Shown here one piece after another: positions 34,653-52,335 of a DNA stretch of 64,000 bases; position 1 is the stretch's first letter, and every line of letters begins with the position of its first letter. Below the pieces are notes generated by a model. The model was given only the letters and a program-made list of their open reading frames with translations. It was not told where the DNA came from and ran no database searches. A program made the translations under genes and the position numbers. Source of the DNA: Zobellia nedashkovskayae (GTDB lineage: Bacteria > Bacteroidota > Bacteroidia > Flavobacteriales > Flavobacteriaceae); NCBI RefSeq assembly GCF_015330125.1, contig NZ_JADDXR010000002.1, forward strand, positions 4,848,685-4,912,684. The letters run 5' to 3'.

Positions 34653-35537
34653 ATGAAGCTGACGTACAAACAAACCGAAAAACGACCTGAAAATTCCTTT
34701 TTAGCTCGACAAGATCGATTGCCCTGTATTGAACAGAATTGGCATTTTCATAAAGAATTAGAGTTAATCTACTTTATAAAAAGTAGTGGGACTCGTTATG
34801 TAGGAAACTCTATTGGAAGTTTTGCTCCTGGTGAATTGTATCTTATTGGCAGCAACATTCCACATCTGTTCAAAAATCATAAAGAGTATTACAATGACCA
34901 GCAAGAAGCTGAAGCTGTTAACCTAATTGTCATAAAATTTGAACCCGATTTTTTAGGAAGTGAGTTTCTAGATTTAACGGAATCAAAACGTTTAAAAAGT
35001 CTTATGCAACGTGCAGACCGAGGTGTAAAATTCTCTGCATCTGCAACATACATGGTTCACAATCTTATTTCCGGACTTGTTGGCGACCAGGGTTTATCTA
35101 GCATCGTAGGGCTTTTGAAAATTTTAGACACCTTATCTATGAGTGAAAATTATGAATCGCTATGCTCTGAAGTAATTGCCAATACTTACAACAGCAACGA
35201 AAAGGACAGAATGCGTAAAATCATAAATTTTCTTACCGAAAATTTTGAAAAGAAAATAGAATTAGAAGAAATTGCATCCATAGCGCATATGACTCCAAAT
35301 GCCTTCTGCAGGTATTTCAAAAAGAAAACCAGAAAATCTTTTACGCAGTACTTGAACGAAATTCGTTTACGCAATGCTTGTAAACTTTTAATAGAGGGAG
35401 AAATGCAAATTTCCACCGTTTGCTACCAATCCGGTTTTAATACGCTTACCAATTTTAACAGGCAATTTAAAGCCTTAATGAATATCACCCCAACAGAATA
35501 CATGCAAAAATACAATGAGCGGAAAGAGATGGTATAA
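34653..35537 (+). CDS. AraC-family transcriptional regulator
   Basis: A DNA-binding regulator of 294 residues with a sugar-sensing cupin in front and a double helix-turn-helix behind. The cupin half shows WHFHKELELIYFIKSSGTRYV and FAPGELYLIGSNIPHLF. The C-terminal 100 residues are the AraC domain: ELEEIASIAHMTPNAFCRYFKKKTRKSF for the first helix-turn-helix and ISTVCYQSGFNTLTNFNRQFKALMNITPTEYM for the second, with the conserved Gly-Phe. It is the only regulator in the window and lies directly upstream of the GntP transporter and the anhydro-galactose genes. The direct repeats at 35590, 37010 and 46377 are suitable targets for such a protein. Activation by a carrageenan-derived sugar is inferred. 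Confidence 0.9.
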   Translation: MKLTYKQTEKRPENSFLARQDRLPCIEQNWHFHKELELIYFIKSSGTRYVGNSIGSFAPGELYLIGSNIPHLFKNHKEYYNDQQEAEAVNLIVIKFEPDFLGSEFLDLTESKRLKSLMQRADRGVKFSASATYMVHNLISGLVGDQGLSSIVGLLKILDTLSMSENYESLCSEVIANTYNSNEKDRMRKIINFLTENFEKKIELEEIASIAHMTPNAFCRYFKKKTRKSFTQYLNEIRLRNACKLLIEGEMQISTVCYQSGFNTLTNFNRQFKALMNITPTEYMQKYNERKEMV

Positions 35538-35589: not shown

Positions 35590-35619
35590 GGTTATAATAG
35601 TGCCTACAATGGTTAATAC
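35590..35619 (+). promoter_or_regulatory. Direct-repeat operator upstream of the GntP transporter
   Basis: Half-sites GGTTATAAT (35590) and GGTTAATAC (35611) start 21 bp apart, two helix turns. The middle reads AGTGCC, as at the GH127 site. An exact -7 element (TATTTTTG) begins 37 bp after the second half-site start. Confidence 0.65.
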
Positions 35620-35647
35620 ACGCATTTTTACGAAGGTATATTTCAAT

Positions 35648-35655
35648 TATTTTTG
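35648..35655 (+). promoter_or_regulatory. -7 promoter element of the GntP transporter
   Basis: TATTTTTG matches TAnnTTTG exactly and lies 38 bases before the GTG start codon. The operator ends where a -33 element would sit, as is usual for an AraC activator touching RNA polymerase. Confidence 0.6.
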
Positions 35656-35693
35656 TTTGGATAGCCTTACCGACCTAACTTTAATATGACCGC

Positions 35694-36995
35694 GTGACGA
35701 GCCTTTTATTCTTACTTCTTTGTATTGTTTTGCTCATTGTTGCGGTAACCGTATTTAAAGTACACCCAATTCCTGCATTACTTATTTCAGGATTGATTTT
35801 AGGGCTAACCACAGGTAGTTCTGTGGAATTGGTTACCGATAGTTTATTGAGCGGTTTTGGAAACACCCTAAAGTGGATTGGCCTTATTATTCTATTTGGC
35901 ACTTTATTGGGTGAAATTCTGGCTCAAACCGGTGGCGCAGATGTGATAGCTCTTACCATTATAAATTTATTCGGCACAAAGTATCTTCCATTGAGTGTGG
36001 CCGTAATCGGTTTTTTAATTGGTATACCCGTTTTTATGGATGTTGCCTATTTAACCTTATTACCAACCATATTCGTCCTTTCAAAAAAATCTGGCCATTC
36101 CGTTCTTACTTTAGGACTTTCTTTAGCTATTAGTCTTACGGTTGCTCACGCATTAATTCCACCAACACCCGGTCCACTTGCTGTTGCGGCCATTCTTGAG
36201 ATTAATATTGGAGACATGATTCCCATTAATATTGTGGTAGCCTTAGCAGCAATAGCTGGAGGTTTACTGTGGATAAAACTCAACAAGACAAACCTTGCCC
36301 TTAAATTACCCGAGACAACTATTGGTGAGGCATCAAAAGTAAAAGAGCTTACTGGTTTCAAAAGAATATTACCTTTTGCCGCTTTATTAGTACCTCTATT
36401 TCTGATGTCCATAGGCACTATTTTTCCATCGGAAAACGGATTTATCACATTTATTAAAAACCCAGTATGGGCACTTCTTATAGGTGTACTCTTCGCACTC
36501 CCTTTACTTCCTAGAAAAGATTTTTCTACCCGTTTGAATACATTCTTTAAAACTTCGGGAGAGAAATCAGCTATTGTCATTCTTATAACCGGTACGGGTG
36601 GTGCTTTCGGACAGGTAATTAAAGACACGGAAATAGTAGGTTCAATGTTTTCCGATGTAGGTGATATTGCAGCTATGGGTGTAGTTATTCCATTTTTATT
36701 GAGTTTTCTTTTTACTACAGTTACAGGATCAATTACAGTTTCACTTATCACTACGGCCTCTATTGTTGCTCCATTAGTTTCTAATGGCACCCTGCACCCA
36801 ACGTTTACCGCTGCGGCAATTGGTGCTGGTTCTCTTGGGATTATCCACGTAAACAGTAGCTTCTTTTGGTTGTTTAAAGAAGTACATGAGGTTTCTGTAT
36901 CACGGTTACTAAAATCTTTCAGCCTATTATCCGGTGTGGTGGCTTTAAGTGGAGGACTTCTTGTGCTGGCATTATATTATTTTAGCGAACTCTAA
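35694..36995 (+). CDS. GntP-family sugar-acid permease
   Basis: A proton-coupled permease of 433 residues in the inner membrane with about twelve to fourteen hydrophobic segments. The GTG at 35694 is used; the nearby ATG at 35686 runs into a stop after two codons. Family blocks are HPIPALLISGLILGLTTGSS, GILLGEILAQTGGAD in the form GTLLGEILAQTGGAD, PVFMDVAYLTLLPT, HALIPPTPGPLAVA and the late FLLSFLFTTVTGSITVSL. GntP proteins import gluconate and other sugar acids. Inside this cluster it may import a product of 3,6-anhydro-galactose oxidation or another acid from the algal galactan; that is inference. It is the first gene after the AraC regulator and has its own operator and -7 element. Confidence 0.87.
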   Translation: MTSLLFLLLCIVLLIVAVTVFKVHPIPALLISGLILGLTTGSSVELVTDSLLSGFGNTLKWIGLIILFGTLLGEILAQTGGADVIALTIINLFGTKYLPLSVAVIGFLIGIPVFMDVAYLTLLPTIFVLSKKSGHSVLTLGLSLAISLTVAHALIPPTPGPLAVAAILEINIGDMIPINIVVALAAIAGGLLWIKLNKTNLALKLPETTIGEASKVKELTGFKRILPFAALLVPLFLMSIGTIFPSENGFITFIKNPVWALLIGVLFALPLLPRKDFSTRLNTFFKTSGEKSAIVILITGTGGAFGQVIKDTEIVGSMFSDVGDIAAMGVVIPFLLSFLFTTVTGSITVSLITTASIVAPLVSNGTLHPTFTAAAIGAGSLGIIHVNSSFFWLFKEVHEVSVSRLLKSFSLLSGVVALSGGLLVLALYYFSEL

Positions 36996-37009
36996 GCTAC
37001 CCACAACTC

Positions 37010-37039
37010 GGTTAAAATAATGTCACACTAGGGTAAAAT
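37010..37039 (+). promoter_or_regulatory. Direct-repeat operator upstream of the RhaT-like transporter
   Basis: Half-sites GGTTAAAAT (37010) and GGGTAAAAT (37031), 21 bp apart. A TTTCTTTG -7-like element begins at 37068, exactly 37 bp after the second half-site start, as at the other two copies. Confidence 0.65.
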
Positions 37040-37067
37040 CCGAGAATCCAACTGCTTTATATTCAAT

Positions 37068-37075
37068 TTTCTTTG
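37068..37075 (+). promoter_or_regulatory. -7 promoter element of the RhaT-anhydrosugar unit
   Basis: TTTCTTTG differs from TAnnTTTG at one position and lies 69 bases before the RhaT start. Its place relative to the operator is identical to that at GntP and GH127. Confidence 0.5.
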
Positions 37076-37143
37076 TGTCACATGAGGATTTGAACACATC
37101 TATCTTCCATATTACTAATTCCAAAGAAAATAAAACAACACAT

Positions 37144-38151
37144 ATGGATACCTATCTATTGGCTATCGTTTTAATACTATTCGCTAGTTTCTTTCAAGGA
37201 ACTTTTGGATTAGGAATGAAGCACATTGCACCTTTAAAATGGGAAGCTTGGTGGTTAGTCCACGCATTTACGGCCATGATACTATTCCCAATTATCTGGG
37301 CATTAATAGTCATGCCAAACCTTTTTGAAATCATTTCTAAAACTGATAGCAACACTTTATTCTTAGCTGCTTTTTACGGCTTCCTTTGGGGTATTGGCGG
37401 TATTCTTTTTGGAGTTAGTGTGGAGAAAACGGGTATTTCTATTACCTATGGTATTGTTATGGGTCTTGCTGCATCAGTTGGTTCTATTATTCCTCTTTTT
37501 CAGATTGAAGGAGCGTTTGACCAACCGTCATTCCCCATCATAATGGTGGGCGTTGCCTTACTACTTGTGGGTGTTGCTATTACAGCGGTGGCAGGTGTCA
37601 AAAGAGACAAATTACATAGTAATTCCTCCACGACGACTAAATCTATAAAAATTGGAGTATTGATTGCCGTAGCATCAGGTGTGTTATCTGCCTTTTTAAA
37701 TGTTGGTTTTTCAAATGCAGCTCCGGTTGCAGCAATTGCCGTAAACGATTATGGTGTAGGTGCACAAAATGCTAGTTTAGCATCGTGGGTGGTCGTTTTA
37801 TTAGGTGCATTTGTTATGAACGGAGGTTATGCGCTCTACCTTTTCATCAAAAATAAATCATGGAATGCCTATTCAATCCCAAAAAAGGGCAAGGCCTTAA
37901 AATGGGCCATTGCTGCAGGTATTTTTTGGTTCGCAGCGCTTGGAGTCTATGGTCAAGGCGCAGCACTTATGGGTAACTTAGGTCCTGTAGTGGGGTGGCC
38001 AATTCTTTTGGGACTAGCCCTAATCATTAGTAATATCTGGGGATATAGAGAAGGAGAATGGAAAAATGCGGACAAGCCTTTTAAAATTTTATTAGCAGGC
38101 CTTGCCGTTCTGATCATCGCCATTTGTATTTTAGGATACGCCAATTACTAA
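37144..38151 (+). CDS. RhaT-family (L-rhamnose/H+ symporter-like) transporter
   Basis: An inner-membrane sugar-proton symporter of 335 residues with ten hydrophobic segments. I use the ATG at 37144 because the upstream extension to 37075 is polar and overlaps the promoter. RhaT-like landmarks are FASFFQGTFGLGMKH, WEAWWLVHAF, FYGFLWGIGGILFGVSVEKTGISITYGIVMG, SGVLSAFLNVGFSNAAPVA and the C-terminal GPVVGWPILLGLALIISNIWG. It is the first gene of the unit that encodes the anhydro-galactose pathway and lies more than 30 kb from the rhamnose-like genes at the window start. A role in uptake of 3,6-anhydro-galactose is therefore more likely than rhamnose uptake, by inference. Confidence 0.88.
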   Translation: MDTYLLAIVLILFASFFQGTFGLGMKHIAPLKWEAWWLVHAFTAMILFPIIWALIVMPNLFEIISKTDSNTLFLAAFYGFLWGIGGILFGVSVEKTGISITYGIVMGLAASVGSIIPLFQIEGAFDQPSFPIIMVGVALLLVGVAITAVAGVKRDKLHSNSSTTTKSIKIGVLIAVASGVLSAFLNVGFSNAAPVAAIAVNDYGVGAQNASLASWVVVLLGAFVMNGGYALYLFIKNKSWNAYSIPKKGKALKWAIAAGIFWFAALGVYGQGAALMGNLGPVVGWPILLGLALIISNIWGYREGEWKNADKPFKILLAGLAVLIIAICILGYANY

Positions 38152-38185
38152 ACCAACCATTAATTAAACTATAAGCACTTTTATT

Positions 38186-39352
38186 ATGAAAATCCAAAAG
38201 ATAGAGCCTTTTGTTATTACACATAAATTAGACACACCCTTCTATTTTTCGCAGTGGCAGTATGATACTCGTAAGATATGTATCGTGAAAATAACTTTAG
38301 ATGATGGCACATATGGTTGGGGAGAAGGGTATGGTCCTGCGGCGGTAATTAAATCCGGTATCGATTTTTTCACGCCTTTCCTCTTGGAAAAAAATGCTTT
38401 GGAGCATGAGACGCTGTGGCAAGAAATGTACAGGCGCTCTATGGACTACGCACGTAGCGGAGCATTTCAAGCTGCTATTAGTGCTATAGATGTTGCGTTG
38501 TGGGATATTAAGGGGAAGCTTTTAAACCAGCCCGTCTCCGTGTTATTAGGCGGTATTAAAAACCCGATTATAGAACCTTACGCCACTGGATTATATTTTA
38601 CCCGAAGCGAGAACCTTGAAGAGCTTTTGGTTGAAGAGGCGCTATTATACAAATCTCAAGGATTCAAAGCCACAAAAATGAAAGTAGGTCTAGGCATTCA
38701 GCAAGACCTAAAATATATTGCCGCAATTCGCAAAGCCATTGGGCCAGACATGAGTTTAATGATAGATTCCAATCATGCTTATTCTTATAAAGAGGCCATA
38801 GAACTGGCAAGAAAAGCTGAAAAATATGATATTTCTTGGTTTGAAGAACCAGTATCACCAGAGGATTATGACGGGTACCGCAGACTAAGAGAAAATACTA
38901 CTATACCTATTGCGGGTGGTGAATGCGAATATTTGAAATTTGGTTTTAAACGTCTTTTTGAGAATGATTGTGTAGATATAGCGCAACCTGATATTTGTGC
39001 AACGGGCGGATTAACGGAAGCCAAGCGAATTACGACTTTAGCACAAGCATACAACAAAGATGTTGTACCACATACTTGGGGAACATGGATTGCTATAAGT
39101 GCTGCAATTCATCTGGTTGCCAATTTAGATAAGAATCCAGGTAGAATGTACAACGATCTACCTACAATGGAATTGGACAGAACGGAAAATGCACTTCGTG
39201 ACGAGGTTACCCTTCACAATGTAAAACTCGAAAATGGACATCTAGAAGTACCGCGTACACCAGGCTTGGGCGTAGATGTTGACATGGACAAATTAGAATA
39301 CTATTTAGATAAAGAAATACATAAAGATGGAGCAGTTAAAATTCGGTCATAA
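38186..39352 (+). CDS. Enolase-superfamily cycloisomerase (probable 3,6-anhydro-galactonate cycloisomerase)
   Basis: A mandelate-racemase/muconate-lactonising enzyme of 388 residues. Catalytic features are K164-x-K166 (in TKMKVG), metal ligands D194, E220 and E246, and H296 in VPHTWGT. The expected reaction in this context is ring opening of 3,6-anhydro-D-galactonate to 2-keto-3-deoxy-D-galactonate in the cytoplasm. Enolase-superfamily members also include galactonate and other sugar-acid dehydratases, which give the same product and cannot be excluded by sequence. The gene overlaps the aldehyde dehydrogenase by 26 bases, and the kinase and aldolase that use its product follow, so the pathway assignment is strong even though the substrate is inferred. 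Confidence 0.82.
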   Translation: MKIQKIEPFVITHKLDTPFYFSQWQYDTRKICIVKITLDDGTYGWGEGYGPAAVIKSGIDFFTPFLLEKNALEHETLWQEMYRRSMDYARSGAFQAAISAIDVALWDIKGKLLNQPVSVLLGGIKNPIIEPYATGLYFTRSENLEELLVEEALLYKSQGFKATKMKVGLGIQQDLKYIAAIRKAIGPDMSLMIDSNHAYSYKEAIELARKAEKYDISWFEEPVSPEDYDGYRRLRENTTIPIAGGECEYLKFGFKRLFENDCVDIAQPDICATGGLTEAKRITTLAQAYNKDVVPHTWGTWIAISAAIHLVANLDKNPGRMYNDLPTMELDRTENALRDEVTLHNVKLENGHLEVPRTPGLGVDVDMDKLEYYLDKEIHKDGAVKIRS

Positions 39353-40769
39353 GAAATTATATATTGATGGTGCACTTGTAGAAGCCTCAAACAATAAAAC
39401 TTTTGAGGTTATTTGCCCAGCGGACGAAAAGCCCACTGCTACAATTGCTTGGGCTAGTTTAGAAGATACCAAAAGAGCTTTAAAAACTGCAGAATCAGGT
39501 TTTAAAACTTGGTCAAAACTTCCCATACAAGAGCGCCTAGATTGGATAGATAAGCTGAGAAATAAAATCATAGAGAATAGCGACTTGCTACGTGAAAGCA
39601 TCATGTATGAAATGGGCAAAACTTGGGAAGGCTCAGAAGAAGACCTTACCAGCATCACCAATTCTTTACAGTACTATTCTGAAGAAATATTGAAGCGAAA
39701 TGACATTCCTATTGAGGATAAAGAAGGTACTCATGAACACCATTTTGTATCACAACCTTTAGGCGTTGCAGTTGCTTTCCTAGCGTATAACTTTCCGTTG
39801 TTGAACTTAGGTTTTAAACTAGGGCCTGCGCTAGCCGCTGGCTCAAGTATCATTTTAAAACCTTCAGAATTTTCACCTTTATCGGCCTATATTATTGGAG
39901 AATTATGTGCTGAAATTAATTTCCCAAAAGGAGTAATAACTGTTCTTTGTGGGGATTTAAACGATGTGGGTATTCCTCTTTGCGAAAGTAAAATTCCAAG
40001 ACTGATTACCATGATCGGTTCTACGGAAACTGCGCAAAAGCTTATAGCACAAAGTACAAAAACATCCATAAAAAGATACAGCATGGAATGCGGCGGAAAT
40101 GCCCCGTTTATTGTTTGTAAGGATGCCGATTTAGAACTGGCCATAAATATTGGTACAGCTCTTAAAGTTGGTAACTCAGGACAAATCTGTGTAGCTCCTA
40201 ATCGTTTTTTCGTTCACGAATCGCTTATAGAAAAATTTGCGGCTGGCATGGTAGAAAAGTTTAAAGGAACTAAACTTGGGTTTGGGCGAGAGAACAAACC
40301 TGATATGGGTCCGTTGACCAACAAGCAATCGGTTATAAAAGTCCAAGGTATTGTAGATACAGCAGTTAAACAGGGTGGTAAATTACTATATGGCGGAAGT
40401 GCTTTAGAAGGTTCTGGCTATTATTTTGAACCTACGGTTATTACCTTCAACAAAAATGAAGTTGAAATTCTTCAACATGAAATTTTTGGTCCTGTAGCCC
40501 TCATTGTTCCATTTAAAACAAAAGAAGAGGTTATTGTACTGGCCAATAATACAGATGCGGGGCTAGCTTCTTACGTGTTTTCTAAGGATGAAGAAACGCT
40601 AGATTTCTTTGCCAACGCCCTAGAATTTGGAGAAGTACAGCTTAATGGTGTTAAATATGATATATACTTACCACATGGTGGTGTTAAAAACAGTGGTATA
40701 GGAGTGGATTGCTCTACTTATGCGCTAGATGATTATCTTGCCAAAAAAAGAGTAACCAAAGCTTTATAA
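39327..40769 (+). CDS. Aldehyde dehydrogenase (probable 3,6-anhydro-galactose dehydrogenase)
   Basis: An NAD(P)-dependent aldehyde dehydrogenase of 480 residues. The catalytic cysteine is C288 in NSGQICVAPNRF and the general base E254 in SMECGGNAPF. The cofactor region is FLAYNFPLLNLGFKLGPALAAG and IGSTETAQKL. The C-terminal GVKNSGIG closes the family pattern. In this cluster it should oxidise 3,6-anhydro-galactose, which exists as an aldehyde, to the acid. Its start lies inside the cycloisomerase gene (26 bp overlap), and its stop overlaps the start of the kinase by one base (TAATG), so the steps are translationally coupled. Succinate-semialdehyde-like specificity is the main alternative by sequence, but context disfavours it. 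Confidence 0.88.
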   Translation: MEQLKFGHKKLYIDGALVEASNNKTFEVICPADEKPTATIAWASLEDTKRALKTAESGFKTWSKLPIQERLDWIDKLRNKIIENSDLLRESIMYEMGKTWEGSEEDLTSITNSLQYYSEEILKRNDIPIEDKEGTHEHHFVSQPLGVAVAFLAYNFPLLNLGFKLGPALAAGSSIILKPSEFSPLSAYIIGELCAEINFPKGVITVLCGDLNDVGIPLCESKIPRLITMIGSTETAQKLIAQSTKTSIKRYSMECGGNAPFIVCKDADLELAINIGTALKVGNSGQICVAPNRFFVHESLIEKFAAGMVEKFKGTKLGFGRENKPDMGPLTNKQSVIKVQGIVDTAVKQGGKLLYGGSALEGSGYYFEPTVITFNKNEVEILQHEIFGPVALIVPFKTKEEVIVLANNTDAGLASYVFSKDEETLDFFANALEFGEVQLNGVKYDIYLPHGGVKNSGIGVDCSTYALDDYLAKKRVTKAL

Positions 40770-41728
40770 TGCCAATGAAACTACCAGAAAAATTTATTAG
40801 CTGCGATTGGGGTACCACCAATTTTCGGCTGCGTTTAATAGAAACGAAATCGCTCAAAATTCTCTCGGAACACTCGACAGATATGGGCATTAAAAAATGC
40901 TTTCAAGAATTTAAAGAACAATCTAGTGTTTCTCAAGACCAGTTTTTTGCGAAATACCTAAAACATCAAATCAAAAACCTAGACGGTAAAATCAGTAATG
41001 ATTATATTATAGTAGCATCCGGAATGCTCTCATCTTCAATAGGTATGCATGAGTTAAATTATGCAAATATGCCCTTAGCTTTTAATGGCAAGGACCTAAT
41101 AAGTAAGTACATTCCTTTTGATGATATGCCAGACCTGTTACTTGTTTCGGGTGCTAAAACAGATTCTGATGTGATGCGGGGGGAAGAAGTTCAGGCTATA
41201 GGTCTCGCTAAAGAGCTTGCTAAACACGAAAAGGGGATTTTATTATTACCAGGCACGCATTGCAAACACATTGCTTTTGAAACAGGTGTTTTTAAAGACT
41301 TTACCACGTATATGACCGGTGAACTTTTTGACACTATTAGCAAGCACACAATTTTATCGGCTTCGCTAACCCCGGCTGCGTGGGATGTTTCTTTTCAGGA
41401 TATTTTCTTGGAAGGGGTTAAAAAAGGACTAGCAGACCAACAGATGCAATCTTTATTCGCAATCCGGGCAAATACCCTAATTAATCAGGTTTCTGGAGAA
41501 CAAAACTTTTACTTTTTGTCCGGTCTTATGATTGGTGGTGAGTTGGCAAGTTTACAAAACCAGACCGGAACCATCTTTCTAGCGGCAAGTGGCATATACA
41601 GTATACTCTATAAGCTAGCCCTAGAATCATTTTTACCAACCGAACAAATCGTTTGCTTTGAGGAGCAAATTTTAGAAAAAGCATTACTAACAGGACAACA
41701 ACAAATATTACGGACTTATGCAGAATAA
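40769..41728 (+). CDS. dgoK: 2-keto-3-deoxygalactonate kinase (DgoK-like)
   Basis: Phosphorylates 2-keto-3-deoxy-D-galactonate at O-6 with ATP. The protein has 319 residues, close to DgoK length. The phosphate loop is FISCDWGTTNFRLRLIE, and family blocks are DMGIKKCFQEF, IIVASGMLSSSIGMHE, DLLLVSGAKTDSDVMRGEEVQAIG and the central ILLLPGTHCKHIAF. YFLSGLMIGGEL follows near the C-terminus. The start codon used here is at 40769; a second ATG two codons later is equally plausible. It overlaps the stop of the dehydrogenase by one base and the start of the aldolase by 11 bases. The set of four overlapping genes gives one pathway unit from anhydro-galactose to central metabolism. Confidence 0.88.
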   Translation: MPMKLPEKFISCDWGTTNFRLRLIETKSLKILSEHSTDMGIKKCFQEFKEQSSVSQDQFFAKYLKHQIKNLDGKISNDYIIVASGMLSSSIGMHELNYANMPLAFNGKDLISKYIPFDDMPDLLLVSGAKTDSDVMRGEEVQAIGLAKELAKHEKGILLLPGTHCKHIAFETGVFKDFTTYMTGELFDTISKHTILSASLTPAAWDVSFQDIFLEGVKKGLADQQMQSLFAIRANTLINQVSGEQNFYFLSGLMIGGELASLQNQTGTIFLAASGIYSILYKLALESFLPTEQIVCFEEQILEKALLTGQQQILRTYAE

Positions 41729-42365
41729 TACATTTTCATGGGATAAATATAACCAAAACCCAATAGTGGGAATCCTAAGAGGGCTAACAACAGAAGAGGT
41801 TCTTAAGATTATGCCTTCTTACGTAAAAACTGGTTTTTACACGATTGAAATTACCATGAACTCACCCAAGGTTGCTGAAACCATTGCAACTTTAGCCAAA
41901 GAGTATCCTGAGCTTAATGTAGGCGCTGGTACGGTTTGTACTATGGAAGATTTAAAAATTGCTTTAGATGCTGGCTCTCAATTTATCGTAACCCCAATTA
42001 TTGACGAGGAAGTAATTAAACATTGTGTAGCTAATAACATTCCTATTTTTCCAGGAGCATATACTCCTACTGAAATCCACAAAGCATGGTCTTGGGGTGC
42101 TTCTGCGGTAAAAGTCTTTCCGGCAACGCAGTTGGGGGTTCAATACATAAAAGACGTTTTGGCGCCACTTAATGAAATAAAACTTTTACCTACTGGTGGT
42201 GTTTCAGTAGACAATATAAAATCGTTTTTTGAAGCAGGAGCTGTTGGTGCCGGTTTGGCAAGTGCACTCTTCGATAAAAAGATGATTCGTGAAGGAAACT
42301 ATGCCGATTTGGAAAAGCATTTTATTAAGATGAAAAACGAGATTAAAGATTTCATAAAAGAGTAA
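41718..42365 (+). CDS. 2-dehydro-3-deoxy-6-phosphogalactonate (KDPGal) aldolase
   Basis: A class I aldolase of the KDPG/KHG family with 215 residues, the family length. The Schiff-base lysine is K132 in SAVKVFPAT, and the catalytic glutamate is E44 in TIEITMNSPK. Other blocks are PIVGILRGLT, VGAGTVCT, FIVTPIID, IFPGAYTPTEIHKAW and LLPTGGVSVDN, which also fix the phosphate. It cleaves 2-keto-3-deoxy-6-phosphogalactonate to pyruvate and glyceraldehyde 3-phosphate. The gluconate epimer cannot be excluded on sequence, but the DgoK-like kinase immediately before it points to the galactonate form. It starts 11 bases inside the kinase gene. Confidence 0.88.
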   Translation: MQNNTFSWDKYNQNPIVGILRGLTTEEVLKIMPSYVKTGFYTIEITMNSPKVAETIATLAKEYPELNVGAGTVCTMEDLKIALDAGSQFIVTPIIDEEVIKHCVANNIPIFPGAYTPTEIHKAWSWGASAVKVFPATQLGVQYIKDVLAPLNEIKLLPTGGVSVDNIKSFFEAGAVGAGLASALFDKKMIREGNYADLEKHFIKMKNEIKDFIKE

Positions 42366-42393
42366 AAATCATCAACATAATCAACTTTTTAAA

Positions 42394-44469
42394 ATGAAAA
42401 ACAATAGAAAAAAGGCTAAACAGAAGATCATATCTTTAGTTATAATTGGTCTGACTGTATTTAACGGTCTCGCTTTGGATACGTATAAATTAGACCCTAT
42501 TGTTTTGGAAAATGAAAAGTTGAATGTGAGTGTTGATTCTGAAACAGGATGCTTTTCTGTTACCGAAAAAACTTCTGGTCACGTTTGGAAATCGGACCCG
42601 TGGGAAAATGCCGCGGGTCTATTGACCATAATTGATTCCAAAGGAAAAAAACATACGGTTAACATTTCCAAAAGTAAAAAAATTGAAGTTTCAAAAAAGG
42701 CTAACAATACGGTATCTCTCAAATTTATAGACCCCGTTTTTGAAGATGGCTCCGTAGCTACAGGAGTTTCTATTGTTACAGAATTGAAACTAGACTCAAA
42801 AACAGCTTTATTAGATGTTGAAGTTATTGAGCGTAATGCCGGTAATTTTAAACTATCGGATTTACGTTATCCAGCACGGGCTTTCAGCTTAAAAACAGAT
42901 GAAGACAAGGGTGCTGCTGTAATTCCACAAAAGCAGGGAATTATTTGTCCGTCCTATATTTTTCCTATGAACGGAGGTCGTTTTTGTAAATGGGATGACG
43001 CCACTTACAATAATAAATCACAAGGCTCTTTGGAGTTGTTTAACAATGGAACAGGGCTTACGATGCCTTGGTGGGGAACGTACAATGAAAAATCTGCCGT
43101 AATAGGTATTGTAGATGAGTCAGCTCGTCCACATTTACAATATAATATCAATAATAATGGTCAATACCTTTTTAAAGGTGAAATGTCTACTTACCAACGT
43201 ATTGTTTTTCTTGACCCTATTTGGAAACTAGATGAGGAAAAAGGTAAAATGAGAATGAGTTATCATTTTATTCCCGGTGGTGATTATGTAGATATGGCAA
43301 AAGAATATCAAAAGGAGACTAAGGCCCGTGGGTATTTTGTTTCCTTAAAAGAAAAATTAAAAAGAAATCCGAATGTAGATAAACTTCCAGGAGCTATCTA
43401 TTTCGGAATCTACGGCGGCTATCCGCATTATGTGAACATGCCCGGAATGGCTTTCACTTTTGATGAATTAAAAAATACGATACAAACCATTCATGATGAT
43501 TTAAAAATTAATAAAGCTTTTGTTCATGCATGGGGAACTTTTTCAAATTTCGTACCGCACAACTCCCCTATCAGTGAAGCTTTAGGAGGGCCGGAAAAAT
43601 TAAAGGCTGCTGTTGATCTTGCTAAATCCTACGGGTATTTATACTCCTCATATCATGCCTATTCACCTATGCTAGAGAACGACCCTAATTTTACAACGGA
43701 CCTCATGCAGCGGGATGCCGAAGGAAACTTAATGAATACTGGTAGTCGTTGGGCGCGTGTAGACCCAAAATTTCAGAAAGGACTGGCTCAAGAAAACATT
43801 GAAAACGAAATTTCTTATTTAGGCCTAGAGGCCGATATTACGGATATTACCTTTGCCGCATACCGTGAAAATGGAAAAGAAGGCCGGATTGAGTTGGCTA
43901 AATATATAGACAGCTTTAATTTGGTAAATGGAACCGAACATGGTCAAGAACAGTGGATACCCTATTTTGATATGTTCGAAGGGATGACTTATTTAGAGGA
44001 CCGTCCACTTTCTGTAATCTCCCACCCCGCTCCGCTTTTTAATTTGGTGTATCATAAAGCCATAGCAAATTTCGGGAAGATTCAAGATCCGGATAATGAG
44101 GTTACCGCCAATGGCGATTTTAGAATTAAAGCCTTAAGAAGTATGTTATTTGGCCGAGGTACTACCATATTCTTTTCACCTTATGAATTTGAAGGCATGC
44201 GCCCTATGATAGAAATGGCTAGAGATTTGGTAAGCCCTATTCATAAAGAAACGTTCTATTCGGAATTAAAAAGCCATGAATATTTAAGTGCCGATTATAA
44301 AGTACAGAGAAGTCGCTTCTCCAGTGGCACCGAAGTAATTGCCAATTTAGGTCCGGTAGCACAAACAATTGAAGGTGGCGCTTCCATTCCCGGATATGGT
44401 TATAGTATTAAAATGAAAGATGGGAGTATAAAAACCGGTCATTTTCAAGTGAGTCTTCACATGGATTAA
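42394..44469 (+). CDS. GH129-like exo-glycosidase, probable 3,6-anhydro-D-galactosidase
   Basis: A 691-residue exported glycosidase. A signal peptide (VIIGLTVFNGLALD) ends near residue 29. An N-terminal beta-sandwich (residues about 35-330) precedes a TIM barrel. Blocks seen in GH129-type enzymes are YGGYPHYVN, AFVHAWGTFSNFVPHN, YLYSSYHAYSPM and RWARVDP. Candidate catalytic residues are D481 or D484 in EADITDIT and E515 or E519 in NGTEHGQEQW, by comparison with the Asp nucleophile and Glu acid of GH129. GH129 was founded on alpha-N-acetylgalactosaminidases. Members in carrageenan clusters were reported to remove non-reducing 3,6-anhydro-D-galactose. Position after the aldolase and before a sulfatase favours that activity. 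Confidence 0.75.
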   Translation: MKNNRKKAKQKIISLVIIGLTVFNGLALDTYKLDPIVLENEKLNVSVDSETGCFSVTEKTSGHVWKSDPWENAAGLLTIIDSKGKKHTVNISKSKKIEVSKKANNTVSLKFIDPVFEDGSVATGVSIVTELKLDSKTALLDVEVIERNAGNFKLSDLRYPARAFSLKTDEDKGAAVIPQKQGIICPSYIFPMNGGRFCKWDDATYNNKSQGSLELFNNGTGLTMPWWGTYNEKSAVIGIVDESARPHLQYNINNNGQYLFKGEMSTYQRIVFLDPIWKLDEEKGKMRMSYHFIPGGDYVDMAKEYQKETKARGYFVSLKEKLKRNPNVDKLPGAIYFGIYGGYPHYVNMPGMAFTFDELKNTIQTIHDDLKINKAFVHAWGTFSNFVPHNSPISEALGGPEKLKAAVDLAKSYGYLYSSYHAYSPMLENDPNFTTDLMQRDAEGNLMNTGSRWARVDPKFQKGLAQENIENEISYLGLEADITDITFAAYRENGKEGRIELAKYIDSFNLVNGTEHGQEQWIPYFDMFEGMTYLEDRPLSVISHPAPLFNLVYHKAIANFGKIQDPDNEVTANGDFRIKALRSMLFGRGTTIFFSPYEFEGMRPMIEMARDLVSPIHKETFYSELKSHEYLSADYKVQRSRFSSGTEVIANLGPVAQTIEGGASIPGYGYSIKMKDGSIKTGHFQVSLHMD

Positions 44470-44509
44470 TAGAAGGTTTCCAGCAAACAAATACAAAAGA
44501 CAGGTCATT

Positions 44510-46291
44510 ATGAAATATGTTGCAACAAAATTAAAATTAAATCAGACTAGATTTAGTTCAATTATATTCTCGTTTTGCCTTTGTACAGTTCTTTGCCATA
44601 ACACGCTCCTTACAGCACAAGACCGTCCTAACGTAGTTATTATGCTTACCGACGATCAAGGTTATGGCGACCTGGGTTCTCACGGCAACCCGTATTTAAA
44701 AACACCTAACATGGAAAAGATAGGAGAGGAAGGTCTTGAAATGACCCATTTTTTTTCCTATCCAAATTGTTCTGCTACTCGTGCAGCCATCTTAACGGGT
44801 CGGTATCCTTACCGTACAGGAGTTACAGGCGTTACGCAAGTAGATCACTTTATGAATACTTCAGAAGAAACCCTAGCCGAGATTTTGGCTAAAAACGGTT
44901 ACCGTACGGGAATTTTTGGAAAATGGCATTTGGGGGACAATGCACCAATGCGCCCAACAGACCAAGGTTTTCAAGAAGCCCTTGTACATAAAGGAGGTGG
45001 TATTGGCCAAGCTGCAGGACCCGTTGGCAATACCTATTTTGACCCAATCCTTGAACATAATAATCAATCAAAAAAATACGAAGGATATTGCGATGATATT
45101 TTTACGGATGCCGCTCTGGATTTTATGAGCGAGAAAAGTGACAAACCATTTTTTACATATTTAGCAACTAACCTACCACACTTTCCGCTGGAAGTGCCTG
45201 ATGAAAAAGCAGACCCTTATAGAAAAATAGGACTCCATGAAGACAATGCCAAAACTTACGGCATGATCGATAATATTGATGCCAGCGTAGGTCGCGTTTT
45301 AAAGCGGTTAAAACAATTAGGTATTGAAGACAATACAATAGTCATTTTCCTTTCGGATAATGGCCCCAGAAATAGACGTACAAAAAATGACGTTTATCCA
45401 GGAAGATGGGTAGCAAATTTACGAGGAACAAAAACAAGTGTTTACGAATGTGGTATCCGCGTTCCTTTCTTTGTTAAATGGCCAAAAAACATTGAAAAAG
45501 CGCAGCAGAACAGTACTATGGGTGCAGTAATAGATGTACTGCCCACAATCCTAGATGTTTGTAAAATTGAAGCTCCTGAGGATATTAAATTGGATGGTAA
45601 ATCCTTACTATCTCTTTGGAAAGGTGAACAAACGGACTTTGGAAATAGGGAGTTCATAACCCAAATGCATTATGGCCCAACGGTATTTAAATACATGCAT
45701 TTTGCCGTTCGAACCCAAAAATATAAATTGATAAGTCCGCATGATGACCCACACCATATTCTTTATCAACCTAAAGATGAAGAATTGAAAGAAGTACTCG
45801 CTAACCTAGAATTATACGACGTAGAAAATGACCCAACAGAACGTATAAACTTAGCCCAAAATCACCCTGAAATCGTAGAAGACCTTCTGGCACGTTATGA
45901 AAATTGGTTTGACGAGGTTACTGAAGAAAGAGATTCTAAAGGCATTCAACGTATTTATCTTGGCAGCAACACGCAACGCTCTACCAATCTATCTCATTTT
46001 GATTGGGGAGGCCCTAGAGTTCTATCCAAGAATGAACTGGGCCACTGGCGCGTAAAGACGGAAGCTGGTAGATACAACGTAAGTTTGGACCTTCCCGAAC
46101 TGGACCATGAAGGTGTAGCGCATTTGAAATACAATGACGTGCATTTAAAACTTCCAGTAAACAAAGACCAGAAAAAAATCACTTTTACAGATGTTGTACT
46201 TCCTGAAGGAAAAGGAAACTTCCATGCCTTTTTAAAAACAGAAAGATTAGCTACAGGCCCTTTATTTGTTGATGTTGAGCGTATTGATTAA
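44510..46291 (+). CDS. Family S1 sulfatase with CSATR signature, secreted
   Basis: A formylglycine sulfatase of 593 residues. A signal peptide ends near LLTAQ (residue 37). The catalytic signature reads C87-S-A-T-R91, the less common form with Ala in place of Pro, still within the accepted C-x-[PA]-[ST]-R pattern. Metal aspartates D48 and D49 lie in MLTDDQGYGD, and the blocks GKWHLGD, LSDNGP and ELYDVENDPTERINLA are present. A C-terminal beta-domain (DLPELDHEGVAHLKYN) follows. It sits between GH129 and GH127 genes, so it should act on a carrageenan sulfate ester. The candidates by analogy are the sub-families S1_7, S1_17 and S1_19, which I cannot separate here. Confidence 0.88.
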   Translation: MKYVATKLKLNQTRFSSIIFSFCLCTVLCHNTLLTAQDRPNVVIMLTDDQGYGDLGSHGNPYLKTPNMEKIGEEGLEMTHFFSYPNCSATRAAILTGRYPYRTGVTGVTQVDHFMNTSEETLAEILAKNGYRTGIFGKWHLGDNAPMRPTDQGFQEALVHKGGGIGQAAGPVGNTYFDPILEHNNQSKKYEGYCDDIFTDAALDFMSEKSDKPFFTYLATNLPHFPLEVPDEKADPYRKIGLHEDNAKTYGMIDNIDASVGRVLKRLKQLGIEDNTIVIFLSDNGPRNRRTKNDVYPGRWVANLRGTKTSVYECGIRVPFFVKWPKNIEKAQQNSTMGAVIDVLPTILDVCKIEAPEDIKLDGKSLLSLWKGEQTDFGNREFITQMHYGPTVFKYMHFAVRTQKYKLISPHDDPHHILYQPKDEELKEVLANLELYDVENDPTERINLAQNHPEIVEDLLARYENWFDEVTEERDSKGIQRIYLGSNTQRSTNLSHFDWGGPRVLSKNELGHWRVKTEAGRYNVSLDLPELDHEGVAHLKYNDVHLKLPVNKDQKKITFTDVVLPEGKGNFHAFLKTERLATGPLFVDVERID

Positions 46292-46376
46292 AATTTACAA
46301 GTTATAATTTCAATCGATTTTTACTTTATCAAATCACACTCAAGTACCACATTTTTTAGCATTCATTAGCAAACAA

Positions 46377-46406
46377 GGTTAAAATAGTGCCGTAACAGGA
46401 TAAAAT
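46377..46406 (+). promoter_or_regulatory. Direct-repeat operator upstream of the first GH127 gene
   Basis: Half-sites GGTTAAAAT (46377) and GGATAAAAT (46398), 21 bp apart, with AGTGCC between, as at the GntP copy. A TTTATTTG -7-like element begins at 46435, 37 bp after the second half-site start. Confidence 0.65.
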
Positions 46407-46434
46407 CTACAAATCACTGTTTCTCCTATTATCC

Positions 46435-46442
46435 TTTATTTG
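46435..46442 (+). promoter_or_regulatory. -7 promoter element of the GH127-MFS-GH127-sulfatase unit
   Basis: TTTATTTG differs from TAnnTTTG at one position, the same one as at RhaT, and is placed identically relative to the operator. Confidence 0.5.
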
Positions 46443-46542: not shown

Positions 46543-48624
46543 ATGAAAAGAATAACCTTCTCCATTTGTATCTTATTAACCATTCTTTCTTGCAAACAAA
46601 GCACGCCTGAACAAAGCCTCAACGAGGATACAACAAAAACAAGAGACTATGCCGCCAGCCTGGATACAGGAAAGGGTGTCATCAATAATACAAACAGTCC
46701 GCATGTTAAATTGAAAAGTATTGACATTGGAGACTGCAGATGGACAGAAGGTTTCTGGGCTGAAAAATGGAAAGTTGCAGAAGAAACTATGATACCCCAT
46801 ATGGGCGTAATCCTAAAAGGAGATATAGGCCACGGTTATAATAATTTTAAAATAGCCGCCGGTCTCAAAGAAGGAGAACATAAAGGTTTTTGGTGGCATG
46901 ATGGCGATTTCTATAAATGGATGGAAGCCAAAATGTATATCTACGGTGTAAATAAAGATGAAAAAATTGTAGAGGAAATAGATGAAATCATAGATGTCAT
47001 TGCACAAGCGCAACAAGCAGACGGGTATTTATCTACACCTGCAATAATACGGGAAGACATTGAACCTTTTACAAATAGAAAATATCATGAGCTTTATAAT
47101 AGTGGGCATTTAATGACCAGTGCCTGTATTCATTACCGCCTTACAGGGAAGACCAATTTCCTAGATATTGCAGTAAAGCACGCAGATTATCTATATAAAA
47201 TTTTCTCACCCAAGCCAGACCACCTTAAACGCTTTGGCTTTAACCAAACGCAGATTATGGGCTTGGTAGAGCTATACCGTACCACTAAAGACAAGCGTTA
47301 TCTTGAGTTAGCTGAACAATTCATTAACATGCGTGGTACTTACAAAATTGAAGATGACGAAACCACGTTAGGTTATCCTATTGGTGATATGGTTCAGGAA
47401 CGCGTTCCGCTTCGTGAAGAAACAGAAGCTGTAGGTCATGCGGTACTGGCTCTTTATTTCTATGCTGGCGCTGCCGATGTATATGCTGAAACTGGCGAAA
47501 AAGAATTGATTGACGCACTAGAAAGGTTGTGGGACAACGTGACCAACAAAAAAATGTACATTACGGGAGCCATTGGTCAAACCCATTATGGCCGTTCTTC
47601 TCGTCTTGATAAAATTGAAGAAGGTTTTATTGATGAGTACATGATGCCTAACATGACTGCCTACAATGAAACTTGTGCCAACATCTGTAACTCCATGTTC
47701 AACTACCGCATGCTTACATTGACCGGAGATGCAAAACATGCTGATATTATGGAACTGGTATTACACAATAGCGGACTCTCAGGCATTAGTCTAGACGGAA
47801 AAAATTATTACTATTCCAATCCGCTTCGGAAAATTGAAGGCGCGCTAGATTATGAAAAAATGAACGTTGAGTTTCCGGAAAGACAGCCCTATCTTAAATG
47901 CTTTTGTTGTCCTCCAAACTTGGTACGTACCATTGCTAAATCTCCAGGTTGGGCATATAGCAAATCTGAAAACGGAATTGCAGTTAACCTATACGGAGCA
48001 AATGAATTGAACACTACCCTATTGGACGGTTCAACCATAAAACTCACCCAAAAAACAGACTACCCATGGGATGGTGCCGTTAAGATTACGGTTGATGAAT
48101 CCAAAGCCGATGCCTTTGATATTCTTCTTCGTATACCTAGTTGGGCAAAGGGTACCCAAATTTATGTAAATGGCACAAAAGCAGCCGAAGCCGTGCCTGG
48201 TACGTTTGCTAAAATTGAAAGAAAATGGGCAGCCGGTGATGAAATCACTATTGACATGCCAATGGAGACTAAATTCATTGAAGGACACCCACGCATTGAA
48301 GAAGTTCGTAACCAAGTTGCCTTAAAAAGAGGTCCAGTTGTGTACTGCATAGAGTCCGCAGATTTACCTGAAAAAACAGATATTACTAATGTTTATCTTT
48401 CTTCTGACAAAAAACTTATTCCTACCTCCAGACCAGACTTCTTAGGAGGTGTCACCACTTTAGAAGGCGAAATTTTAATTCGTAAAGACAAACTGGGGCA
48501 AATGTACCAAGAAGTGAGTGTACCGGAATTTAAATCTTTTAAAACCAATTTTATACCTTACTATGCTTGGAGCAACAGAGGCCAGGGAGAGATGACAGTT
48601 TTTCTTCCGGTAATCTGGAATTAG
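46543..48624 (+). CDS. GH127-family glycosidase, lipoprotein form
   Basis: An exo-glycosidase of 693 residues with an (alpha/alpha)6 barrel followed by beta domains. The lipobox TILSC places a lipidated cysteine at 17, and a linker of about 40 residues leads to the fold, which starts KSIDIGDCRWTEGFW. The GH127 zinc site is intact: E376-T-C378 in YNETCANIC and C455-C456 in CFCCPPN; in characterised GH127 enzymes one of these cysteines is the nucleophile. It is clearly paralogous to 50291-52261. GH127 enzymes include beta-L-arabinofuranosidases. Cluster context, with a GH129 and carrageenan-type genes, favours release of 3,6-anhydro-galactose. It is the first gene of a unit with its own operator. 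Confidence 0.85.
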   Translation: MKRITFSICILLTILSCKQSTPEQSLNEDTTKTRDYAASLDTGKGVINNTNSPHVKLKSIDIGDCRWTEGFWAEKWKVAEETMIPHMGVILKGDIGHGYNNFKIAAGLKEGEHKGFWWHDGDFYKWMEAKMYIYGVNKDEKIVEEIDEIIDVIAQAQQADGYLSTPAIIREDIEPFTNRKYHELYNSGHLMTSACIHYRLTGKTNFLDIAVKHADYLYKIFSPKPDHLKRFGFNQTQIMGLVELYRTTKDKRYLELAEQFINMRGTYKIEDDETTLGYPIGDMVQERVPLREETEAVGHAVLALYFYAGAADVYAETGEKELIDALERLWDNVTNKKMYITGAIGQTHYGRSSRLDKIEEGFIDEYMMPNMTAYNETCANICNSMFNYRMLTLTGDAKHADIMELVLHNSGLSGISLDGKNYYYSNPLRKIEGALDYEKMNVEFPERQPYLKCFCCPPNLVRTIAKSPGWAYSKSENGIAVNLYGANELNTTLLDGSTIKLTQKTDYPWDGAVKITVDESKADAFDILLRIPSWAKGTQIYVNGTKAAEAVPGTFAKIERKWAAGDEITIDMPMETKFIEGHPRIEEVRNQVALKRGPVVYCIESADLPEKTDITNVYLSSDKKLIPTSRPDFLGGVTTLEGEILIRKDKLGQMYQEVSVPEFKSFKTNFIPYYAWSNRGQGEMTVFLPVIWN

Positions 48625-48663
48625 CATTTATGATCGCTCATCACACCTTAATTTAAATAATTT

Positions 48664-50238
48664 ATGGGTTCCTATAAACAGAATGCATTTAAGTACGCAA
48701 CCATTGTAGCCATGGGCGGTTTTGTCTTCGGATTGGACGCTGCGCTAATATCGGGAACAGTGAAATTTATTACACAAGAATTTTCACTGTCGGAACTTGA
48801 ATTGGGTTCGGTAGTTGGCGCTCCGGCTATGGGCGTACTTTTAGCACTTGTTTTTGTAGGTTATGCTTGTAATAAATATGGTCGTAGAACCACCTTGATG
48901 ATTGCTGCGGCCCTTTATCTTGGTTCTGCCGTAGCTTCCGCATTAGCTCCTACATACGTCTCGTTGTTAGTAGCTCGCTTTATGGGTGGATTGGCTTTTA
49001 GTTCTATCTCTTTAGCATCCATGTATATTGGCGAAATAGCGCCTCCAAAATGGCGTGGCAAATTGGTTTCCATGACCCAAATTAACATCGTGGTAGGTTT
49101 ATCCGCTGCCTACTTCATCAACTATCTCATTTTAGGTTGGGCAAATACAGAAGCTCCATGGGTTCAAGAATGGGGACTAGACACGAACACATGGCGCTGG
49201 ATGTTGGGTACTGAAGTTATTTTTGCTCTCTTATGGTTTGTCCTACTCTTTTTTGTTCCTAGAAGTCCGGCTTGGTTATTATATAAAGGGCGTGAGTCAG
49301 AAGCCGTAAGCATGCTATCAAAAGTAACTCCTGAAACCGAAATTCAGGCCAAAATAATCCAAATGCGCTCTAGTCTTGAAAACAGTAATCAAGACCGCTC
49401 AATGCTTACTCAGTTAAAGGAAATTTTTGGTAAGCCAATGCGTGTCACCATGATTATTGCCATGACTATTGCTATCGCACAACAGGCTACTGGTATTAAT
49501 GCCATTCTTTTCTACGCACCTACCGTATTTGAGCAATTGGGTATAGGAACAGACGCTGCTTTTGCACAGGCCATTTATATTGGACTTACCAGTGTGGTGT
49601 TTACTGTTTTAGGTTTGTTATTGGTTGATAGAATAGGCCGTAGGCCTATGATTATCTGGGGCATGCTTTGGATAATCTTAAGTCTTGGTGTTTGCTATTA
49701 CGGATTTGAAACTGCCAATTATACCATTACTGAAACCGCTGTTTCCGAACTATCCTCTATTCCTAATTCAGTAAGATTAAACACCTTAGTGGACGTGCCT
49801 TTTGATAGCGATATAAGTTTTAAAACGGCGCTGATTGAAACCTTAGGAGAAACAGACGCCAGAGATTATTCCGGCCTACTTTTACAGAAAGCAGCCGATA
49901 TAAATGCGCTTCTTATTTTATTAGGCATACTCAGTTTTATTGGTGCCTTCCATTTTTCCATCGGTCCTGTTATGTGGGTCTTATTTTCAGAGATTTTTCC
50001 TATTTCACTGAGAGGTGTAGCCATTCCTTTTTTCACTTTGGTCACCAGCTTTGTGAGCTATTTGGTACAGAAATTTTTTCCATGGCAATTGGCCACCATG
50101 GGTATCAGTTCAACACTGTTATTTTATGCCATTGTCGTAAGCATTGGTTTGGTCATTCTTTATATCTATTTAAAAGAAACTAAAAACATGACCATAGAAG
50201 AAGTACAATTAGCATTAGCCACAAGACGGAAAACTTAA
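48664..50238 (+). CDS. MFS sugar-porter (XylE/GalP-like) transporter
   Basis: An inner-membrane sugar-proton symporter of 524 residues with twelve membrane segments. Sugar-porter signatures are GGFVFGLDAALISG in helix 1, NKYGRRTT after helix 2, PRSPAWLLYKGR after helix 6 (a PESPRWL variant), QQATGINAILFYAP in helix 7, DRIGRRPM after helix 8 and GPVMWVLFSEIFP in helix 10. A stretch of about 75 residues between helices 9 and 10 (NYTITETAVSELSSI and following) is longer than in XylE and may be exported. It lies between two GH127 paralogues, 39 bases after the first. It probably carries galactose, anhydro-galactose or a short oligosaccharide; the sequence does not say which. Confidence 0.9.
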   Translation: MGSYKQNAFKYATIVAMGGFVFGLDAALISGTVKFITQEFSLSELELGSVVGAPAMGVLLALVFVGYACNKYGRRTTLMIAAALYLGSAVASALAPTYVSLLVARFMGGLAFSSISLASMYIGEIAPPKWRGKLVSMTQINIVVGLSAAYFINYLILGWANTEAPWVQEWGLDTNTWRWMLGTEVIFALLWFVLLFFVPRSPAWLLYKGRESEAVSMLSKVTPETEIQAKIIQMRSSLENSNQDRSMLTQLKEIFGKPMRVTMIIAMTIAIAQQATGINAILFYAPTVFEQLGIGTDAAFAQAIYIGLTSVVFTVLGLLLVDRIGRRPMIIWGMLWIILSLGVCYYGFETANYTITETAVSELSSIPNSVRLNTLVDVPFDSDISFKTALIETLGETDARDYSGLLLQKAADINALLILLGILSFIGAFHFSIGPVMWVLFSEIFPISLRGVAIPFFTLVTSFVSYLVQKFFPWQLATMGISSTLLFYAIVVSIGLVILYIYLKETKNMTIEEVQLALATRRKT

Positions 50239-50290
50239 TAGATATACTACATCCATATAAATAGATTTCTTTTCCAATAACACAGTACAG

Positions 50291-52261: not shown

Positions 52262-52335
52262 GACAAAATATTAAAGAAAACGGCATTAAATAAACTGAAA
52301 AATCAAAAACATCACTTTTAACAAAACTAATAACT

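Follow-up and report, generated by a model that had tools for sequence, protein, structure and literature searches.

The araI1-I2 site of the Escherichia coli regulator AraC consists of direct half-sites that lie 21 bp apart and end at the -35 region. Direct repeats of 21-bp period have also been predicted for the AraC-type domains of the Bacteroides hybrid two-component systems (PMC3878776) and for AraC-family rhamnose regulators of Bacillales, Bacteroides and Enterococcus (PMC3870299). In Zobellia galactanivorans, cgrA is the gene of a known positive regulator, the deletion of which causes a lag and reduced growth on carrageenans; it is counted in the core system of the Bacteroidetes carrageenan loci, and 3,6-anhydro-D-galactose (D-AnG) has been proposed as the effector, but no DNA site of CgrA is named where the article treats binding sites, motifs or promoters (PMC5698469). 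Here we describe a candidate for this missing cis-element of a published regulon in a 64,000-nt stretch of Zobellia nedashkovskayae DNA (RefSeq assembly GCF_015330125.1, contig NZ_JADDXR010000002.1, positions 4,848,685 to 4,912,684 of the forward strand; hereafter the window, numbered from its first letter), which belongs to a 4.94 Mb genome. The window carries three copies of a direct repeat followed at a fixed distance by a -7 box, and the repeat is very probably, as judged from the DNA and its gene context, the landing site of CgrA. What is new is the operator, whereas the regulator CgrA and AraC-type operators built of 21-bp direct repeats were already known.

Because the AraC gene of the window, like the genes around it, has its match in the characterised Z. 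galactanivorans carrageenan locus, its product was equated with CgrA. Its closest sequences, 98% identical, are from Zobellia amurskyensis and Z. barbeyronii. The gene lies at the end of a dau/dag locus that contains the DauB and DagB matches in the same gene order, namely cgrA, GntP, RhaT-like, DauB, DauA, DauC, DauD, DagB, sulfatase, GH127, MFS, GH127 and S1_19 sulfatase. By these genes the locus is the carrageenan locus ZGAL_3145-3159 of Z. galactanivorans, two genes short of the fifteen there (PMC5698469). The two systems share the regulator, the locus order, and a distant susCD pair and S1_7 sulfatase. A rhamnose or arabinose regulon, as prompted by the names RhaT and GH127, was ruled out, since DauB and DagB match Z. 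galactanivorans enzymes. The systems of PMC3878776 and PMC3870299 differ in having other regulators and other sequences, with no fixed distance to a -7 box stated, and compared with araI1-I2 the CgrA operator differs in sequence and in core promoter, and no site precedes cgrA itself. The statement of a preliminary description of this DNA that no published account of the motif was known still stands, as none was found in the open literature, supplements and subscription papers aside; the accessible sections of PMC5613140, PMC12125979 and PMC7366714 likewise contain no description of this operator.

The operators and -7 boxes of the window are as follows.

35590..35619 (+): operator 1 (GntP promoter), half-sites at 35590 and 35611; weak, matrix score 28.0
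35648..35655 (+): -7 box TATTTTTG of GntP, predicted transcription start ~35660; TAnnTTTG at -12 to -5 as in Flavobacterium psychrophilum
37010..37039 (+): operator 2 (RhaT-dau promoter), half-sites at 37010 and 37031; matrix score 61.4
37068..37075 (+): -7 box TTTCTTTG of RhaT-dau, predicted transcription start ~37080
46377..46406 (+): operator 3 (dagA3 promoter), half-sites at 46377 and 46398; matrix score 52.9
46435..46442 (+): -7 box TTTATTTG of dagA3, predicted transcription start ~46447

The preliminary description had given these half-site starts, 21 bp apart, and both they and the placement of the three boxes, which begin 37 bp past the second and 58 bp past the first half-site start, proved exact; the AGTGCC that it saw in two of the three sites is common to sites 1 and 3. 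Its likening of the period, two helix turns, to AraC-type sites agrees with the direct half-site spacing found, and its claim that the window holds only one AraC gene is borne out for the 44 of 46 open reading frames (ORFs) of at least 150 aa scanned with Pfam, those outside the scan (2547-3149 and 36146-36790, both on the minus strand) being antisense within larger ORFs. The operator has the form GGnTAAAATARTG, 8 unconserved bp and RGnTAAAWT, followed by a 28 bp spacer and TWnnTTTG. Under criteria fitted to the preliminary description (first half-site with at most 1 mismatch to GGTTAAAAT, second with at most 3, T[AT]TnTTTG at +58), exactly 3 sites were found in the window and 0 in 150 first-order Markov windows. 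With a matrix built without the window, the training set of which still includes two other loci of the same genome, only the three sites scored above 6, and nothing in 6 Markov windows scored higher than 0.2.

The distribution of the motif follows that of CgrA. Among 397 genomes of the family, CgrA-like proteins at 69-100% identity are present in 11, the source genome included; the ten further orthologues are 69-96% identical, and the others among the matches listed reach at most 43%. A pattern of 66 bases drawn from the three window sites alone, with at most 3 mismatches allowed, was found in 9 of the 11 genomes with CgrA versus 4 of the 386 without it, and its reversed form in 0 of 397 (Fisher p = 6e-14, uncorrected for kinship among the genomes). 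Two of the four matches in CgrA-less genomes (L157 and L163) lie between a gene of the DHDPS family and a divergent cupin-AraC gene, and these look like sites of relatives; the other two precede a sulfatase gene (L155) and the gene of a small protein with a secretion tail (L162), where a cupin-AraC gene lies at the border of the DNA examined. In L157 and L163 (genomes G231 and G056), an apparent aldehyde dehydrogenase gene, identified by eye, follows the DHDPS-family gene. A search for related loci by the peptide patterns PNAFCRYF and T[IV]CYQSGF returned 80 loci, of which 33 are CgrA orthologues at 59-98% identity, from Zobellia, Cellulophaga, Maribacter, Arenibacter, Pseudozobellia, Ulvibacterium, Pricia, Kriegella, Flavobacterium, Aquimarina and other genera. 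A refined composite pattern, which was tuned on the 11 genomes (9 of the 33 are among them), matched all 33 CgrA genomes with a single reversed-control match.

The spacing between operator and -7 box is rigid. When sites in the 33 cgrA loci were collected by the operator with at most 2 mismatches and the -7 box was ignored, TTTG stood in the +58 frame in 35 of 42 distinct sites, at +57 in 0 and at +59 in 0. At up to 3 mismatches the counts were 49 of 60 at +58, 0 at +57 and 2 at +59, and in a set that includes loci fetched for carrying the composite site the count was 56 of 63.

In the whole 4.94 Mb genome only 5 composite sites were found, all before genes of carrageenan type. Three are those of the window. 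The genes in this part of the window are the following.

34653..35537 (+): cgrA, AraC-type regulator of 294 aa, predicted to bind the three sites (HTH_18, 1.7e-21; orthologues; locus order of ZGAL_3145-3159)
35694..36995 (+): GntP-family permease, ZGAL_3158 position (PF02447, 1.2e-80)
37144..38151 (+): RhaT-like sugar/H+ symporter, ZGAL_3157 position, gene 1 of the dau operon (PF06379, 1e-21, scored on the longer ORF from 37075)
38186..39352 (+): DauB, 3,6-anhydro-D-galactonate cycloisomerase (best Protein Data Bank (PDB) match 5olc, 823 bits, residues 2-388)
39327..42365 (+): DauA, DauC and DauD, dehydrogenase, kinase and aldolase (PF00171, PF05035, PF01081 and gene order)
42394..44469 (+): DagB, GH129-like anhydrogalactosidase (PDB 5opq over the full length, 1443 bits)
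44510..46291 (+): sulfatase, cgsC position (PF00884, 9.3e-58; no close PDB match, best 186 bits)
46543..53817 (+): second operon with GH127 (DagA3), MFS transporter, GH127 and S1_19 sulfatase (Pfam)

The structures 5olc and 5opq are those of ZGAL_3156 and ZGAL_3152 from Z. galactanivorans (PMC5698469), and for the sulfatase at 52336-53817 a match of 1001 bits was obtained with PDB 9hh3, 'Sulfatase, family S1-19'. ATG 37144 is most likely the start codon of the RhaT-like gene, as the longer ORF from GTG 37075 would overlap the -7 box. At one distant site the -7 box ends 75 bp before the start codon of a sulfatase gene with 6hhm, a sulfatase of family S1_7, as best PDB match; the second distant site precedes a susC-susD pair.

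Across the 33 cgrA loci, sites scoring above 15 with the matrix were found before RhaT in 23/23 loci, before GntP in 16/24, before a SusC homologue in 8/11 and before DagA3-like genes in 2/11. A site before dauB was found in 5/28, all in loci with no detected RhaT (the sixth such locus, L097, has none), and none was found before dauA (0/28), dauC (0/23), dauD (0/23) or cgrA (0/33). The last result covers the 420 bp upstream of cgrA, where no site scored above 15 in any of the 33 loci (highest score 8), and autoregulation of cgrA through this operator was ruled out on that ground. These placement scores, like those of the promoter classes below, are partly circular, as many of the sites scored had also served to train the matrix, in which TT-type promoters carry more weight; the pattern behind the 9/11 versus 4/386 co-occurrence was drawn from the window alone.

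The genes behind the sites agree largely with published expression data. In Z. galactanivorans, D-AnG induces ZGAL_3145-3150, 3155-3158, 181, 3580 and 3581; not induced by it are cgrA, three carrageenase genes (236, 1973 and 4265) and those genes of 3629-3638 that are listed (PMC5698469, Table 1). By orthology, the five promoters would correspond to the D-AnG-induced genes 3158, 3157-3155, 3150-3145, 181 and 3581-3580, with 3151-3154 as the exception. As regards the latter, no separate site precedes DagB and the following sulfatase at 42394-46291 of the window, the counterparts of which in Z. galactanivorans are responsive to carrageenan and not to D-AnG (PMC5698469).

Two promoter classes were distinguished in a comparison scanned with the operator positions only. 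GntP promoters with TTTG carry TA in the -7 box in 19/19 cases (one of the 20 lacks TTTG) and have weak operators with a median score of 17.2, whereas among the other promoters TA occurs in 3/66 with TTTG (8/75 overall) and the operators are stronger, with medians of 27-39. A weak operator combined with a consensus TA box may give GntP a higher basal level and a smaller induction, and most of the other promoters would be tight and strongly induced. This reading fits well with induction on kappa-carrageenan, where the log2 value is 4.3 for GntP versus 8.1-9.6 for 3157, 3150, 181 and 3581, and partially with induction by D-AnG, where it is 4.1 for GntP versus 7.0 for 3157, 7.1 for 3150, 5.1 for 181 and 4.3 for 3581; a simple division into two classes is also at odds with cgtA, the D-AnG induction of which is only 2^4.3 and so close to that of GntP (PMC5698469). 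The classes yield a quantitative prediction that sets weak operator plus TA box against strong operator plus TT box.

The flavobacterial -7 box TAnnTTTG sits at -12 to -5 in F. psychrophilum (PMC9723704), and with the box set there the operator spans ~-70 to -33. It hence abuts the -33 region in a class II layout, as determined by position from the -7 box only. The C-terminal part of CgrA contains a double helix-turn-helix (PF12833, 1.7e-21; PF00165, 3.4e-10), the helices of which were predicted by AlphaFold2 with a pLDDT of ~60-80; residues 1-206, the part in which AraC-family activators have a sugar-binding (cupin) domain, carry no Pfam domain, and strands were predicted there at 35-96 with a pLDDT mostly below 50 (overall 51.9). 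In the manner of a class II activator, a CgrA dimer may occupy both half-sites on one face of the DNA, with the second half-site next to the -33 region. The trigger would be D-AnG, or a product thereof, in the cell, and CgrA would then touch RNA polymerase and allow it to start at core promoters that mostly deviate from the consensus in the -7 box (TT for TA). The predicted regulon comprises GntP, RhaT-dauBACD, dagA3-MFS-GH127-S1_19, the distant S1_7-like sulfatase and the distant susCD, and cgrA would stand outside the control of its own operator. Such a regulon would explain how a carrageenan locus with no susCD pair of its own is switched jointly with a distant susCD, and its operator may provide a sequence rule for spotting carrageenan-use genes in marine flavobacteria.

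The preliminary description had proposed that the AraC protein activates the three units. The co-occurrence, the proximity of cgrA, the AraC-type geometry, its recurrence beside some related AraC genes, and the published induction and mutant phenotype support this proposal, and the present analysis goes beyond it by matching the protein to CgrA, a regulator already described, and by showing that the regulon appears to reach two distant promoters; direct activation is what we infer from these lines together. We consider it highly likely that CgrA, which activates carrageenan use and belongs to the AraC family, has its operator in this motif. Several observations weigh against this assignment. 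Two of the 11 CgrA genomes lack the strict window-derived pattern, and a site above the score threshold is missing before GntP in 8/24 loci, before the SusC homologue in 3/11 and before DagA3-like genes in 9/11. The operator pattern without the -7 box is noisy: it matched 39 places in 10/11 CgrA genomes (27 with at most 2 mismatches), where its reversed form matched 12, and among 22 selected CgrA-less genomes it matched 22 places (4 with at most 2 mismatches) versus 20 reversed; in the source genome a pattern lacking the -7 box gave 10 matches versus 5 in the reversed control, and its six extra matches with 3 mismatches were taken as noise. Some 3-mismatch matches of the refined pattern are distant from cgrA or on a different contig, and sites that are orthologous do not count as independent. 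The match to the Z. galactanivorans RNA-seq data is one of orthology and gene order. ZGAL_3151-3154 are induced by carrageenan and not by D-AnG (PMC5698469), and their counterparts here follow dauA in the same direction with no site of their own, so that a single operon from the RhaT promoter leaves this pattern unexplained unless there is an internal stop or separate control. Deletion of cgrA reduced growth on carrageenans and did not abolish it (PMC5698469), and therefore the cells have other inputs besides CgrA. Binding by CgrA, the effector and the contact with RNA polymerase are, moreover, steps that we infer.

The limited effect of the deletion is also what would be expected if the sites bound a different regulator, encoded by a gene that is passed on together with those for carrageenan use, with CgrA acting indirectly. 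Candidates for such a regulator could be seen in a LacI gene beside the distant sulfatase and in a PAS kinase and a receiver protein beside susCD, but each of these adjoins one site only. The 21-bp direct repeat is of the kind predicted for other AraC-type regulators, cgrA is counted in the core system of the Bacteroidetes carrageenan loci (PMC5698469), and of 47 distant AraC loci 18 have their best match, scoring above 5 in the same geometry, no more than 250 bp upstream of the AraC gene; a different regulator is accordingly unlikely. It is still far less probable that the motif merely forms part of ordinary sigma-A promoters, as an AT-rich element of the core or upstream of it, with no specific regulator: the -7 box has the TAnnTTTG form usual in flavobacteria and the repeats are rich in A and T, but no more than 5 composite sites exist in the genome, each before a carrageenan-type gene, and 382/386 CgrA-less genomes have none. 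Chance likeness of AT-rich intergenic DNA, to which the mere three copies in the window and the loose second half-site at 35611 might point, has next to no probability, given the empty simulated windows, and was ruled out by the conservation of the sites in every CgrA genome. Recognition by CgrA thus remains our preferred explanation of the motif.

The layout extends to some of the more distant relatives of CgrA, which, given the peptide patterns used, were chosen for a shared helix. In the exact geometry, the CgrA matrix scored above 5 in 26 of 66 distant AraC loci and above 10 in 19, and 40 did not exceed 5. Shifting the repeat spacing by 1-5 bases left 0-7 of the 66 loci above 5, and keeping the repeat spacing while shifting the -7 box left 2-16, the highest count being at one base away. 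Of the 47 larger loci, 23 scored above 5, and the 18 best matches just mentioned include 16 pointing away from the AraC gene. When the scan was confined to 600 bp around that gene, a score above 5 was reached in 20 of the 46 loci with the PNAFCRYF string (L124, with a broken frame, left out). At position 12, the 25 paralogue sites have A in 15 and G in 5, versus G in 53/54 CgrA cores, and the second base of the -7 box is A in 19/25 paralogue sites. These comparisons point to a shared layout with paralogue-specific bases. With a slight lean in its favour, we propose that the fixed layout (a GGnTAA.AT repeat of 21 bp with the -7 box 58 bp from the first half-site start) is the operator-promoter grammar of a large clade of AraC activators across Bacteroidota with PNAFCRYF in the recognition helix, in which the position-12 base would help to separate paralogues and the balance of operator strength against -7 strength would set basal level and fold induction. 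If this is true, many orphan AraC regulons could be read from sequence, and the geometry common to related AraC loci may permit regulon prediction for other Bacteroidota regulators.

Some minor observations concern the surroundings of the two distant sites. A gene for a LacI-family regulator (L011:6824-7855) lies just upstream of the S1_7-like sulfatase gene and adjoins a divergent operon encoding a kinase, a TIM-barrel protein and a transaldolase. Genes for a PAS-domain histidine kinase and a receiver-domain protein (L216:8413-10957) lie just upstream of the distant susCD on the same strand. The susCD behind this site (L216:2856-7850, compared with L225, L226, L229 and L231) comes in two types within Zobellia. 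Relative to Z. barbeyronii, identity is 93% between the site and the start codon, 88% in the first 100 aa of SusC, 40-74% in the rest of SusC and 56% in SusD, and relative to Z. uliginosa C3R17 the values are 81% for the site-to-start stretch, 96% for SusC and 92% for SusD. It looks, from these identities, as if susCD alleles had been exchanged behind a retained promoter.

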